Assembly: GCA_031262995.1 (NCBI GenBank)
Contig: JAISGR010000027.1
Span: 1-34,273, forward strand
Direction: 5' to 3'
Origin: Prevotellaceae bacterium
GTDB taxonomy: Bacteria > Bacteroidota > Bacteroidia > Bacteroidales > Bacteroidaceae
Length of the DNA stretch: 34,273 bases
Shown piece by piece: positions 393 through 21,359 of this stretch. Both the position numbers and the translations under genes were made by a program. How positions within the stretch are numbered: the stretch's first letter is position 1; each line of letters starts with the position of its first letter. The notes beneath the pieces were generated by a model. The model was not told the origin of the DNA. It worked only from the letters and a program-made list of their open reading frames with translations, and ran no database searches.

Positions 393-2111
393 TTAAAGCT
401 CCAGCTTGTACTGCACGCCGTGTTTCCGGGCATGGCGTTTCCAGAACTTCTTTCTGTAATGGAGCGTGCGTTCGATGCAGTAAGCGGTGTCTGCCCCGCG
501 GGCTTCGGCATACCGTGTGGCGAGTTCGACAAAGAAGGCGGGCTGTCCCCACAGGCGGGCGAAGTTGGCACATCCTTTCTCTACGCTGACCTTTCCGAAG
601 TACATGCGGTTGGTATCGACAAGGGAGAAGCGGTACTCGCCGTCTACCGTGTCGAACAGGATGTTGCCGGGCGAATAGTCGCGGTGCAGGATACCGTGCT
701 CGTGCATCGCGGCAGTGAAGCGGGCTAACGCCTGCACGATGTCCCGACAGTCGGCGATGTCGGCATTGCCAAACTCGTAGAAGTTGCGGCGGTAGGGCGA
801 CTGCTCGCTGATGAAGTAGGATTCGGCGAGCAGCCCGAAGGAAGCGTTTGTGAGACAGGCTATCGGTCGGGGCGTTTCGATGCCTGCCTGCAACAACCGG
901 TTGGGGTAGGTGAATGCGCGTTCGGCTTTGGACTTCCGGAAGAAGGAGTAGACAATGCGGTTGAAGAGCGACGGAACGGCATATCGCTTCACGTTGATGC
1001 TCCGGGTGCCGACAGTCATTACCTTGATGGTGTTTCTGCCTGCGTAGATGATTTCCCCTTCGGTGTCAAACCGATTGATTCGTTCAAGGATAGCGGGCAT
1101 GATGCTTTCGTAAGCGGGGCTATACTGCATGTGTACGGTGGGCTGCTGCCCTGTCAGGCGGAAATACTTATCCAATACCAGCAGGGAGATGAGCCGTTCG
1201 CGCTGCTTGTCCCTGAAAGGAGCCACGTAGTCATGGGCGTGTGCGATGATCTGTTGGGCTTCGTCGGGGTGCTGGATATAGTAAGTCACCCGCTCCTCCA
1301 GATCCGAGAAGTCGGGTTTGATCTCGATGTAGTGGTAGTTGGGAATCAGCGTCCCCTCCATGAACCACGTTTCGCAGGTAGGTCGGGGCATGACGGCGAT
1401 GGAGTTGGACGACATCACCCACTTCAGGTTGCTTGCCACATCGTTGCCTTCGAGCGCCATGATGAACTTGTAGTCCAAGTGTTCGCGGATGGTTTTCTTC
1501 TCGGTCTGCCACTCGGCAGGGTCGGTGGTGCGCTTGCTCACATCGCCCAGGTCGCACAGCGGGTGCTGGAAGTACATCTCCATGAACTGCCGGCGGTTGG
1601 GTTTGTCCTTCACCTTGCCGCGGAAGATGACTCGGTCTTGCTTGTCGGCAAACGCTTTCTTGTCGTCGACAAAGATGAAATGGCGCGCCTTGTTCAGCTT
1701 CATCACGATGGAGTTGCGGTTGTCGGGCACCAGCGGACGGCTCTTCACGATAGCGGGAGCGGGCGGTACGTAGGTCACATCGCCCGGACAGAAGCACCAG
1801 CGATAGTGCGGCGGAAACCAGCGGGTATATTCATGCGTATCGAAGAAGTAGACCTTGTGCCGCCCCATCTTGTGCGCCTTGAGCGGCGGGGCATCGGCAG
1901 GAAGGGGCATCGGCTGAGAGAGCCGGTTGTAGTACTCCACCCGCCGGTTGATGTATTCGATGTCGTCCCGCCGCGCTGCCGATGCCAACACCCTGTGCAA
2001 CCGCATCCGATGCCACAAGCCGGGGATGAGCATACGGAGCATGTTCAGTCCGTAATAGACAAACTTAGGGTGCTTGCCGCTGCGCAGTGTATATAGTAAT
2101 TTATTTTTCAT
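393..2111 (-). CDS. Fusion protein: glycosyltransferase family 90 (CAP10-like) N-terminal domain plus LPS kinase (WaaP/InaA/Kdo-kinase-like) C-terminal domain
   Basis: ORF to 2132; likely start MKNKLLYTLRSGKHPKF at 2111. CAP10-like motifs (VIFRGKVKDKPNRRQF, EGNDVASNLKWVMSSNSI..., DLEERVTYYIQHPDEAQQI). Kinase motif HEHGILHRDYSPGNILF and VDTNRM in the C-terminal third. Confidence 0.85.
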   Translation of the reverse strand: MKNKLLYTLRSGKHPKFVYYGLNMLRMLIPGLWHRMRLHRVLASAARRDDIEYINRRVEYYNRLSQPMPLPADAPPLKAHKMGRHKVYFFDTHEYTRWFPPHYRWCFCPGDVTYVPPAPAIVKSRPLVPDNRNSIVMKLNKARHFIFVDDKKAFADKQDRVIFRGKVKDKPNRRQFMEMYFQHPLCDLGDVSKRTTDPAEWQTEKKTIREHLDYKFIMALEGNDVASNLKWVMSSNSIAVMPRPTCETWFMEGTLIPNYHYIEIKPDFSDLEERVTYYIQHPDEAQQIIAHAHDYVAPFRDKQRERLISLLVLDKYFRLTGQQPTVHMQYSPAYESIMPAILERINRFDTEGEIIYAGRNTIKVMTVGTRSINVKRYAVPSLFNRIVYSFFRKSKAERAFTYPNRLLQAGIETPRPIACLTNASFGLLAESYFISEQSPYRRNFYEFGNADIADCRDIVQALARFTAAMHEHGILHRDYSPGNILFDTVDGEYRFSLVDTNRMYFGKVSVEKGCANFARLWGQPAFFVELATRYAEARGADTAYCIERTLHYRKKFWKRHARKHGVQYKLEL

Positions 2112-2149
2112 AAGCCTGCCCGATACGTCCATTGCTAAAAGTGAGGCGG

Positions 2150-13536: not shown

Positions 13537-13649
13537 CAGGAGGGGGTGAAGTAAAGTATACGACTGTACGCGGTAAAGTATACGACCAGACAGGCTCAGG
13601 TATACGACCGGACAAGGTCAGGTATACGACCTTGCCGTGCCTCCTCCTG
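13537..13649 (+). repeat. Degenerate 22-bp-period GTATACGAC array (4 units) inside a 10-bp inverted repeat
   Basis: GTATAC at 13556, 13578, 13600 and 13622 (all steps 22). Flanks caggaggggg 13537-13546 and cctcctcctg 13640-13649 pair with one G-U. Terminal hairpin CAAGGTC-aggtatac-GACCTTG. Confidence 0.75.
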
Positions 13650-17695: not shown

Positions 17696-19705
17696 ATGAA
17701 CGACAACAAGCTTATGATGCGCGCTGCGGACAACATCCGCATACTGGCAGCCTCAATGGTAGAAAAAGCCAACTCCGGACACCCGGGCGGAGCCATGGGA
17801 GGCGCCGATTTTATCAACACCCTCTTTTCCGAATATCTGGTGTACGACCCCGAAAACCCCGCATGGGAAGGACGCGACCGCTTCTTCCTCGACCCGGGAC
17901 ACATGTCGCCCATGCTCTACTCGGTGCTGGCGCTCTCCGGAAAGTTCACCCTCGATGAGCTGAAAGAGTTCCGCCAATGGGACAGCCCCACACCGGGACA
18001 CCCCGAACGGGATATCCTGCGCGGCATCGAAAACACCTCCGGTCCGCTCGGACAGGGACACACCTTCGCCGTCGGCGCCGCCATCGCTGCCAAGTTCCTC
18101 AAAGCCCGCTTCGGCGAGGTGATGAACCAAACCATCTACGCCTATATCTCCGACGGAGGCATACAGGAAGAGATTTCGCAAGGCGCCGGACGCATCGCCG
18201 GCACACTGGGATTGGACAACCTCATCATGTTCTACGACTCCAACGACATCCAGCTCTCCACCGAGACCAAGGCGGTGACCATCGAAGATACTGCCCGCAA
18301 GTACCAGGCGTGGGGATGGAACGTGCTGCACTGCGCAGGCAATGACGTGGCAGACATCCGCACCGCCCTCGACGAAGCCAAAGCCGAAACCGAACGTCCC
18401 ACCCTGATCATCGGCAAGACCATCATGGGCAAAGGCGCCCGCAAAGCCGACGGCAGCAGCTACGAAGCCAACACCGCCACACACGGCGCCCCGCTGGGAG
18501 GCGATGCCTACATCAACACCATCAAGAACCTGGGAGGCGACCCGGAGCACCCGTTCGCCATCTTCCCCGAAGTAGCCGACATGTATGCCGCCCGCGCCTG
18601 CGAGCTGAAGGAGATTGCCGCCAGCCGCTATGCCGACAAGGCTGTCTGGACAAAAGCCAATCCCGCACTCTCAGCCAAGCTGGAATCGTTCTTCTCCGGC
18701 AAAGCGCCCGAAGTAGACTGGGCAGGCATTCAGCAGAAAGCAGGCGCTGCCACCCGTGCCGCCTCTGCCACCGTGCTGAGCGCACTTGCCACGCAGGTAG
18801 AGAACATGATTGTGGCATCTGCCGACCTCTCCAACTCCGACAAGACCGACGGCTTCCTCAAGAAGACACACGCATTTGCCAAGGGCGACTTTAGCGGCGC
18901 CTTCTTCCAGGCAGGCGTAGCCGAGCTGACCATGGCTTGCTGCTGCATCGGCATGGCGCTGCACGGCGGCGTGATTCCCGCTTGCGGCACCTTCTTCGTC
19001 TTCTCCGACTACATGAAACCTGCCGTGCGCATGGCTGCACTGATGGAGGTACCGGTGAAGTTCATCTGGACACACGATGCCTTCCGCGTAGGCGAAGACG
19101 GACCGACCCACGAGCCGGTAGAGCAGGAGGCACAAATCCGACTGATGGAGAAGTTGCAGAACCACCACGGCGAGAACTCCATGCTGGTGCTCCGTCCGGC
19201 AGATGCCGAAGAGACCACCGTGGCATGGCAGCTTGCCATGGAGAACACAACCACTCCGACCGGGTTGATCTTCTCCCGCCAGAACATTGCCAACCTGCCC
19301 GCAGGCAACGACTACACACAAGCCGCCCGCGGCGCTTACATCGTTGCCGGCTCCGACGAACCGTTCGACGTGGTGCTCGTGGCATCCGGCTCTGAGGTGG
19401 CAACCCTGATAGCCGGCGCCCAGCTGCTCCGCAACGAAGGCATCAAGGTGCGCATCGTCTCGGCGCCCTCCGAAGGGCTGTTCCGTCGCCGCTCCCAGGA
19501 ATATCAGGAGAGCGTGATACCTGCCGGCGCCAAGGTGTTCGGCTTGACTGCCGGACTGCCCGTCACCCTGCAAGGACTGGTAGGCGCCAACGGCAAGGTA
19601 TGGGGATTGCCCTCGTTCGGCTTCTCCGCCCCCTATCAGGTGCTCGACCAGAAGCTGGGCTTCACCGCCGAGAACGTGTACACCCAAGTGAAAGCCCTGT
19701 TATGA
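17696..19705 (+). CDS. tkt: Transketolase
   Basis: VEKANSGHPGGAMGGADF, GPLGQGHTFAVGAA, THDAFRVGEDGPTHEPVEQ. Confidence 0.96.
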   Translation: MNDNKLMMRAADNIRILAASMVEKANSGHPGGAMGGADFINTLFSEYLVYDPENPAWEGRDRFFLDPGHMSPMLYSVLALSGKFTLDELKEFRQWDSPTPGHPERDILRGIENTSGPLGQGHTFAVGAAIAAKFLKARFGEVMNQTIYAYISDGGIQEEISQGAGRIAGTLGLDNLIMFYDSNDIQLSTETKAVTIEDTARKYQAWGWNVLHCAGNDVADIRTALDEAKAETERPTLIIGKTIMGKGARKADGSSYEANTATHGAPLGGDAYINTIKNLGGDPEHPFAIFPEVADMYAARACELKEIAASRYADKAVWTKANPALSAKLESFFSGKAPEVDWAGIQQKAGAATRAASATVLSALATQVENMIVASADLSNSDKTDGFLKKTHAFAKGDFSGAFFQAGVAELTMACCCIGMALHGGVIPACGTFFVFSDYMKPAVRMAALMEVPVKFIWTHDAFRVGEDGPTHEPVEQEAQIRLMEKLQNHHGENSMLVLRPADAEETTVAWQLAMENTTTPTGLIFSRQNIANLPAGNDYTQAARGAYIVAGSDEPFDVVLVASGSEVATLIAGAQLLRNEGIKVRIVSAPSEGLFRRRSQEYQESVIPAGAKVFGLTAGLPVTLQGLVGANGKVWGLPSFGFSAPYQVLDQKLGFTAENVYTQVKALL

Positions 19706-20151
19706 AGCAGATAGGCATTTGCTCCGACCACGCCGGATTCGAACTCAAGCAGTTCGTCCGGCAGTGGCTGGATGCCAAAGGGTGGGCATACACAGACTTT
19801 GGCACCTTCTCCTCAGAGAGCTGCGACTATCCAGACTATGCCCATCCGCTGGCGCTGGCAGTCGAGGCGGGCGAGTGCTACCCCGGCATAGCCATCTGCG
19901 GCAGCGGCAACGGCATCAACATGACGCTCAACAAGCACCAGCACATCCGCGCCGCCCTGTGCTGGATGCCCGAGATAGCATCCCTGGCACGCCGCCACAA
20001 CAACGCCAATGTGCTCGTCATGCCCGGACGCTTCGTCAGCACCCAAGAGGCAGCCGCCATCATGACCGAGTTCTTCAACACTCCCTTTGAAGGCGGACGG
20101 CACCAAACACGGATAGACAAGATTCCGGTAGCCGTTAATGAAACTCATTAA
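19702..20151 (+). CDS. rpiB: Ribose-5-phosphate isomerase B
   Basis: MKQIGICSDHAGFELK...YPDYAHPLALAVEAGECYPGIAICGSGNGINMTLNKH. ATGA overlap with the tkt stop. Confidence 0.95.
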   Translation: MKQIGICSDHAGFELKQFVRQWLDAKGWAYTDFGTFSSESCDYPDYAHPLALAVEAGECYPGIAICGSGNGINMTLNKHQHIRAALCWMPEIASLARRHNNANVLVMPGRFVSTQEAAAIMTEFFNTPFEGGRHQTRIDKIPVAVNETH

Positions 20152-20408
20152 TAGCCGTAAATGAAGGTTATTAATACCCGTAAATGAGACTCATTAATAC
20201 TCGTAAATGACTCTCATTAATAGCCGTAAATGAAACTCATTTATACCCGTTTCAAAGACTTTGAAATACTCGTTTCAAAAGCTTTGAAATACCCGTTTCA
20301 AAAGTTTTGAGATACTCGTTTCAAAAGCTTTGAGATACTCGTTTCAAAAGCTTTGAGATACTCGTCTCAAAAGCTTTGAGATACTCGTCTCAAAAGTTTT
20401 GAGATACT
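20133..20408 (+). repeat. Tandem palindrome array 2: 12 units of exactly 23 bp; units 1-5 use TAAATGA/TCATTA-type dyads, units 6-12 use TTTCAAA/TTTGAAA-type dyads
   Basis: Unit starts (CGT) at 20133, 20156, 20179, 20202, 20225, 20248, 20271, 20294, 20317, 20340, 20363 and 20386, with the next boundary at 20409. Spacer TAC(C/T)CG is shared across the dyad switch. Confidence 0.96.
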
Positions 20409-20465
20409 CGTACCGCAAATCATTCCTCCATTATCTGAGGGTGTGTTGTAAGTAACTCCGGGTAC

Positions 20466-20549
20466 AACAGAACTTCTGTCAGCCTCGGAACAGAACTTCT
20501 GTTAGCCTCGGAACAGAACCTTTGTTAGCCTCGGAACAGAACTTCTGTG
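20466..20549 (+). repeat. Tandem palindrome array 3: four 23-bp units AACAGAA-c-TTCTGTT-agcctcgg
   Basis: Units at 20466, 20489, 20512 and 20535 (steps 23). 7-bp dyad arms with 8-bp spacer AGCCTCGG. Confidence 0.93.
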
Positions 20550-20642: not shown

Positions 20643-21359
20643 TCATCGAGCGAGAGTCACCCCGAACTTTACCAATGTTCTGTTGAGGCGTTTCCCTCTG
20701 ATACTCACTTCCCGTATTCCTTCACCGGTAAAGGCATCGCTTATCGAAGCAGAGATGGGAGGCGTGCCGTACAGGCTGAACTGATAGGTGATTTCCATGA
20801 ACGCGTATATCCTCCGCGTCAGCTTCCAACCGATATAGATGCTCGGATTGACAATGAACCCGATGTTTCCGTTTCGCGAAAGATTATAACGGTCGGTGTC
20901 GTTACTGTCGGGATGCTTCAAATAGAAACTGGTGTTGTCACGTTCGTTCAGCCCCTCCAGTCCTATGCTGAAGTTGGGTTGCAGGGTGAAGCGTTTAAAC
21001 TCCCTCCGATAGGCAAAGCCGCTGCTTATGTTCATGAAATAACCGCGTGAATTCCCTTTGATTTCAGACGTACGGGTATCTCTGTAATAGCTGTAGCCGG
21101 TTTGCCCCATGTTGTTCATCCACTGTATGCCCCAGTGTTTTGACCAGAAATACCGCACAGATACACCGGTGCTGAAGCATCCGTCATCGCGGTGGCGGTA
21201 ATAGACATGCGGCAGGATGGGCTGCGTGAGGCGGCGGGTATTGCTTGTCCCGATGGAGAAGTTGAAGAGCCACCGGCGAGGGGTGGTCTCTGCTTGCGCA
21301 TGCAAACAGGTTTGCAAAGAGGCAAACAGGAGTATCAACAGGAGCAGGATGCGTTTCAT
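20643..21359 (-). CDS. Outer-membrane beta-barrel-like hypothetical protein with signal peptide
   Basis: MKRILLLLILLFASLQTCLHAQA signal; aromatic-rich alternating beta strands. Confidence 0.65.
   Translation of the reverse strand: MKRILLLLILLFASLQTCLHAQAETTPRRWLFNFSIGTSNTRRLTQPILPHVYYRHRDDGCFSTGVSVRYFWSKHWGIQWMNNMGQTGYSYYRDTRTSEIKGNSRGYFMNISSGFAYRREFKRFTLQPNFSIGLEGLNERDNTSFYLKHPDSNDTDRYNLSRNGNIGFIVNPSIYIGWKLTRRIYAFMEITYQFSLYGTPPISASISDAFTGEGIREVSIRGKRLNRTLVKFGVTLAR

Follow-up and report, generated by a model that had tools for sequence, protein, structure and literature searches.

Tandem dyad repeats in the rpiB convergent region

The window, a contig of 34,273 nucleotides from a Prevotellaceae bacterium analysed at its full length, carries three repeat arrays, designated B, C and A, in a block between two convergent genes, rpiB on the plus strand and a predicted outer-membrane barrel gene on the minus strand. 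The genes and repeats discussed below are as follows, the repeats being given without strand.

73-251: family G array with 7.8 copies of the unit CGACTACAGGTAGTCGCTCATCC at a 23-bp period, built on the same plan
13578-13631: 22-bp array of the GTATACGACC family, 2.5 copies
19702-20151, plus strand: rpiB, ribose-5-phosphate isomerase B (PF02502, E=2e-55; TIGR01120), the upstream convergent gene
20132-20250: family B array, in which CCGTAAATGAAACTCATTAATAC is repeated 5.2 times at a 23-bp period
20243-20411: family C array, in which GTTTCAAAAGCTTTGARATACYC is repeated 7.3 times at a 23-bp period
20466-20548: family A array, recognized by TRF and by its unit, which recurs at many other places in the genome
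20572-20593: perfect 22-bp palindrome CCCCTCCTGCCGGCAGGAGGGG, a dispersed repeat, 24 bp past array A
20643-21359, minus strand: predicted outer-membrane beta-barrel protein (PF13568, E=1.3e-4, below the gathering cut-off), the downstream convergent gene

Elsewhere in the window, positions 393-2132 (minus strand) encode a 579-residue protein in which a GT90-like glycosyltransferase region is joined to a Kdo/WaaP-type kinase region.

Array A consists of four AACAGAAcTTCTGTT-AGCCTCGG units with a 23-bp period, starting at 20466, 20489, 20512 and 20535, and TRF run on the window reports 20466-20548 as period 23 with 3.6 copies and 91% matches. The initial annotation had described four such units with 7-bp arms; the positions and period hold in both the sequence and the TRF output, but the ideal dyad does not extend to all units. 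The perfect 7-1-7 dyad is confined to unit 2, while unit 1 ends in TTCTGTC (an outer A.C pair), unit 3 reads AACAGAAC-CTTTGTT, and unit 4 ends after TTCTGT without a spacer, so that AGCCTCGG is present three times. The G-U pair reported earlier for unit 3 is indeed there as a single G.T pair, but it is accompanied by an A.C next to the loop. Likewise, array A does lie close to the preceding array, at an exact distance of 54 bp rather than about 57 bp. The family B array starts over the rpiB stop codon and joins the family C array without a gap. B and C differ in their stems, yet the in-phase spacer that they share, ATACCCGT or TAC(C/T)CGT, links them to some degree.

Several familiar classes of element do not fit array A. 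A CRISPR array is ruled out, as the spacer AGCCTCGG is itself repeated rather than unique. Intrinsic terminators combine a GC-rich hairpin with a T run, and no T run follows array A. A search of the window against Rfam gave no match at the gathering score. Plasmid or replication iterons, repeats of one sequence per replicon next to a replication initiator gene, are a further class for comparison; the neighbours annotated for array A are rpiB and the predicted outer-membrane protein gene.

A genome-wide class with a narrow period

The initial annotation took 23 bp to be a constraint and predicted a genome-wide family with a fixed period and variable cores. We ran the tandem-repeat scan on the window and 80 contig stretches, together 0.95 of the 2.30 Mb of one draft MAG that is 74% complete. 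TRF returned 20, 63, 76 and 7 rows at periods 21, 22, 23 and 24, respectively, and at most 11 rows at each remaining period from 10 to 72, including the multiples at 44-46 and 66-69. On the 71 contigs that had not been picked for family A, the corresponding counts were 18, 53, 53 and 6. A first-order Markov copy of the 0.95 Mb yielded three TRF rows in total. Periods 22 and 23 were absent from this copy and likewise from 200 kb of E. coli K-12. The distribution is thus sharply peaked, not flat, and with at least 17 recurrent sequence families the predicted family is borne out. Array A is one copy of a genome-wide class and not a product of chance. The constrained length must nevertheless be restated as 22-23 bp, not 23 bp alone, and 22 bp dominates in relatives. 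The closeness of two arrays of equal period, from which the constraint had originally been argued, carries little weight on its own, as adjacent arrays may have spacers and ancestry in common.

In the stretches examined, 126 arrays of period 22 or 23 lie between genes; they comprise about 604 units and span 13.7 of 952 kb, about 1.4% of the sequence. By extrapolation, the whole assembly holds about 300 such arrays.

Symmetry without a common sequence

We scored dyads in 157 non-redundant 20-24-bp arrays, calling a dyad at a score of at least 5 and using column shuffling as the null; this and several other thresholds of the array analysis were set by hand. A clear dyad was present in 76 of the 157 arrays (48%), compared with 6% after shuffling, and 74 of these 76 have a period of 22 or 23. 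The period extends beyond the arrays with a dyad: about 52% of the arrays, 34 intergenic 22-bp arrays among them, show no clear dyad at this score. Clustering gave 17 families with at least two arrays each, plus singletons, and families are found in both orientations relative to transcription. Unit length and layout are constant, whereas the sequence varies from family to family and from species to species; the arrays therefore appear to be made or kept by shape, not by sequence.

Within arrays, stem pairs contained 32 compensatory cells, against 16.6 in shuffles (sd 2.7; maximum 25 in 2000 shuffles), an excess that may stem in part from shared descent because shuffling preserves column make-up and not relatedness. 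One family C example runs from TTTCAAA/TTTGAAA to TCTCAAA/TTTGAGA. In family A, the variant TACTAAA/TTTAGTA is common to three loci (L022, L023 and L124), two of which, L023 and L124, have adjoining half-converted units. Stems vary less than spacers (0.055 vs 0.095), a contrast due in part to the choice of stem columns. Over 56-70 units, variation in families A, D and E falls in a few columns, which vary in most arrays, while the majority of columns hardly change. Unit divergence within arrays and between loci was 2.18 and 2.62, 2.59 and 2.84, and 2.86 and 3.24 in the three comparisons. Such near-equality speaks against strong local homogenization and argues that arrays or units move between loci.

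Arrays at gene 3' ends and the question of an RNA function

Dyad arrays avoid genes: 75 of the 76 lie outside called genes and one inside. Among intergenic regions of at least 100 bp, an array occurs in 26 of the 35 that are convergent, in 37 of the 165 that are co-directional and in 13 of the 65 that are divergent, and Fisher tests of this convergent bias gave p = 1e-8 and 1.5e-7. In co-directional regions, arrays lie closer to the upstream 3' end (median 41 bp vs 129 bp, p = 5.5e-4). Genes were called with a simple hexamer-based caller, so single gene boundaries can be wrong. The arrays that do occur in genes are mostly of 21 bp and dyad-less, as expected of in-frame slippage.

This placement invites a reading at the RNA level, in which the units are 3' UTR hairpins that block exonucleases or end transcription, and placement and compensation reflect selection on RNA. 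Siting at 3' ends and compensatory stem changes agree with it, as does transcript folding: relative to shuffles, array A gave z-scores of -2.95 and -3.64 on the two strands, and array C -6.86 in the sense and -2.99 in the antisense direction. The mismatches speak against it. Selection on RNA predicts an excess of G.U over A.C on the sense strand, but the distinct mismatches of co-directional arrays comprised 12 G.U and 21 A.C, and at a looser threshold the sense-strand G.U fraction was 0.35 (CI 0.20-0.48). A role as oriented mRNA hairpins failed this test, and the occurrence of families in both orientations and the lack of an Rfam match also count against it. Nor do the arrays replace terminators: they showed no complementarity with terminator-like sites, which were about equally frequent with and without an array (7 of 37 vs 17 of 128 co-directional regions; 11 of 26 vs 4 of 9 convergent regions). 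We therefore regard an RNA function as unlikely. The data support DNA-level repeats with constrained unit length and symmetry, and the constraint could come either from the copying process or from a DNA-binding or topological function.

A platform for DNA-binding proteins would account for several of these features. Dimeric sites about two helical turns apart could bind nucleoid proteins or gyrase and relieve supercoiling between convergent genes in the manner of BIMEs; BIME-2 binds gyrase in E. coli (PMC2817692). The two-turn period, the dyads, the strong convergent bias and the strand-symmetric behaviour all suit this idea. Set against them are the at least 17 different core sequences, a poor fit to one sequence-specific protein, together with the absence of the family A sequence from congeners and the presence of some arrays in divergent regions, and we doubt that such a platform is the primary explanation. 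Ordinary VNTR-type slippage repeats of unconstrained unit length, which the tandem layout, the varying copy number between loci and the in-gene 21-bp in-frame dyad-less repeats would suit, are very improbable given the period distribution, with non-genic periods largely confined to 22-23 bp, and the dyads and compensatory changes.

Mobile-element context differs between families

We compared the arrays with mobile elements. Family D arrays sit within 270-295-bp elements bounded by AACGTGAGTTCGANNTAAG terminal inverted repeats (TIRs). The IS982-type element and MITEs with this TIR lie at:

L116 4839-5132; L130 203-473; L131 7939-8233; L140 5697-5990; relatives L237-L246: IS982-type element and MITEs, TIR AACGTGAGTTCGANNTAAG

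Of 160 genomes in the genus, 39 contain the AACGTGAGTTCGANNTAAG TIR pattern, and reversed controls gave no matches. A full-length relative of the family D element encodes an IS982 transposase (NF033520, E = 5e-76), and in the genome under study the IS982-type transposase is present as fragments only. The IS982-type MITE of this genome carries a 23-bp array. Family D resembles known IS982-family MITEs such as MITECca01 of Cardinium (PMC9769881, a paper whose text does not contain the word "tandem") in that its arrays lie between IS982-type ends, but the number of inner array units varies, and only family D was shown to combine TIRs shared with IS982 and the lack of a transposase.

In families A and E, the loci have no flanks in common and are not enclosed by IS982-type ends. 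For family A, an IS982-type MITE was rejected on the grounds that the flanks are not common to all loci and no inverted repeats enclose them; a flank with the CCCCTCCT palindrome is common only to the copies in the window and at one other locus (L019). A perfect-pair regular expression for AGGNTGTGTCRAAA inverted repeats gave no match. In the contigs examined, 10 of the 13 copies of the dispersed palindrome CCCCTCCTGCCGGCAGGAGGGG have a 22-23-bp array less than 200 bp away, and the extended pattern of this palindrome has 28 matches in the genome and one in the 30 relatives searched. Two further arrangements were discarded. Arrays are not generally held in the loop of an enclosing hairpin, for which there was only a slight excess (13% vs 5% at a score of at least 10), mostly from families D, F2 and H, and there is no fixed insertion boundary relative to the dyad, as arrays start or end in the stem-loop at the chance rate (76%). 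A phage or plasmid origin was rejected as well: the family A unit has no exact match in viral contigs, and PLSDB contains nothing that matches the three-array region.

Among the nearest known systems are REP/BIME elements, the BIMEs being described as non-autonomous (PMC2817692), with which the arrays share short extragenic palindromes in many copies, regular spacing, clustering, species specificity and compensatory stem changes. In contrast to BIMEs, whose units alternate in orientation, the units here all point the same way, following one another head-to-tail every 22-23 bp, and there are many distinct families per genome. REP/BIME elements go with RAYT, a Y1 transposase; searches of the genome studied, an assembly only 74% complete, and of several near-complete congeners turned up no Y1_Tnp gene. 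The TAACTGA heptamers of some Bacteroidetes (PMC4679880) are also intergenic direct repeats, but with a dyad-less 7-bp unit and a location near start codons in the main species of that study. A search of the open-access full-text literature returned no description of a 22-23-bp array class, which is not proof of absence.

A proposed model of DNA-level copying

Our preferred reading, to which we give about even chances, is that the array A locus belongs to one of at least 17 families of BIME-like, non-autonomous tandem repeats of 22-23-bp units with dyads, defined by structure, which occupy the intergenic space at 3' ends and between convergent genes in this species. Copying at the DNA level, governed by unit shape and length, would enlarge and disperse such arrays: slippage, template switching or a transposase-like enzyme might multiply the hairpin-forming repeats, and selection would clear insertions from genes and promoters. 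The siting at 3' ends would then mostly reflect where arrays are tolerated. A secondary benefit between convergent genes, for example as a supercoiling buffer or a nucleoid-protein site, is possible. Several observations weigh against this model of DNA-level copying or its simplest form. The movement of families A and E is not explained by their flanks, and a purely neutral version leaves the narrow period and the lower variability of stems than of spacers unaccounted for. The analysis identified no enzyme that amplifies units by length, and about half of the arrays show no clear dyad.

A class set by unit length and symmetry, and found in roughly three of every four intergenic regions between convergent genes, would point either to an as yet unknown means of amplification or to structured DNA being generally needed where genes converge. 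As relatives have a similar 21-22-bp period, both implications are testable in culturable Bacteroides.

Arrays in relatives

Family A has 44 matches with at most two mismatches in its own genome and none in the 159 other genomes of the genus. Judged by its rpiB relatives, the genus of this gut-type Bacteroidales bacterium would be Bacteroides-like. In 0.80 Mb from relatives, TRF gave 27 rows at period 22 and 10 at 21, with sequences other than those of the genome under study. Periods 7 and 14 are common there as well, with 18 and 13 rows (loci L031-L110 and L171-L190). We can also envisage, rather tentatively, an undescribed process in Bacteroidales that would build or expand arrays by hairpin shape and a length of 21-23 bp, about two turns of DNA, from any sequence and mainly at gene 3' ends. 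It would have acted separately in many species, on sequences particular to each.

Unrelated arrays start within 150 bp of the presumed rpiB in 8 of 73 relatives, compared with 8 of 314 other 3' ends; rpiB was assigned by position, two of the eight arrays have a period of 27, and seven is a safer count than eight, since the gene end at 5229 in L086 lies away from the match and probably belongs to another gene. With p near 0.005, and many tests made, this association is only suggestive. The seven other Bacteroidales loci (L063, L074, L083, L099, L101, L106 and L110) have unrelated 21-27-bp arrays just past the rpiB stop codon.
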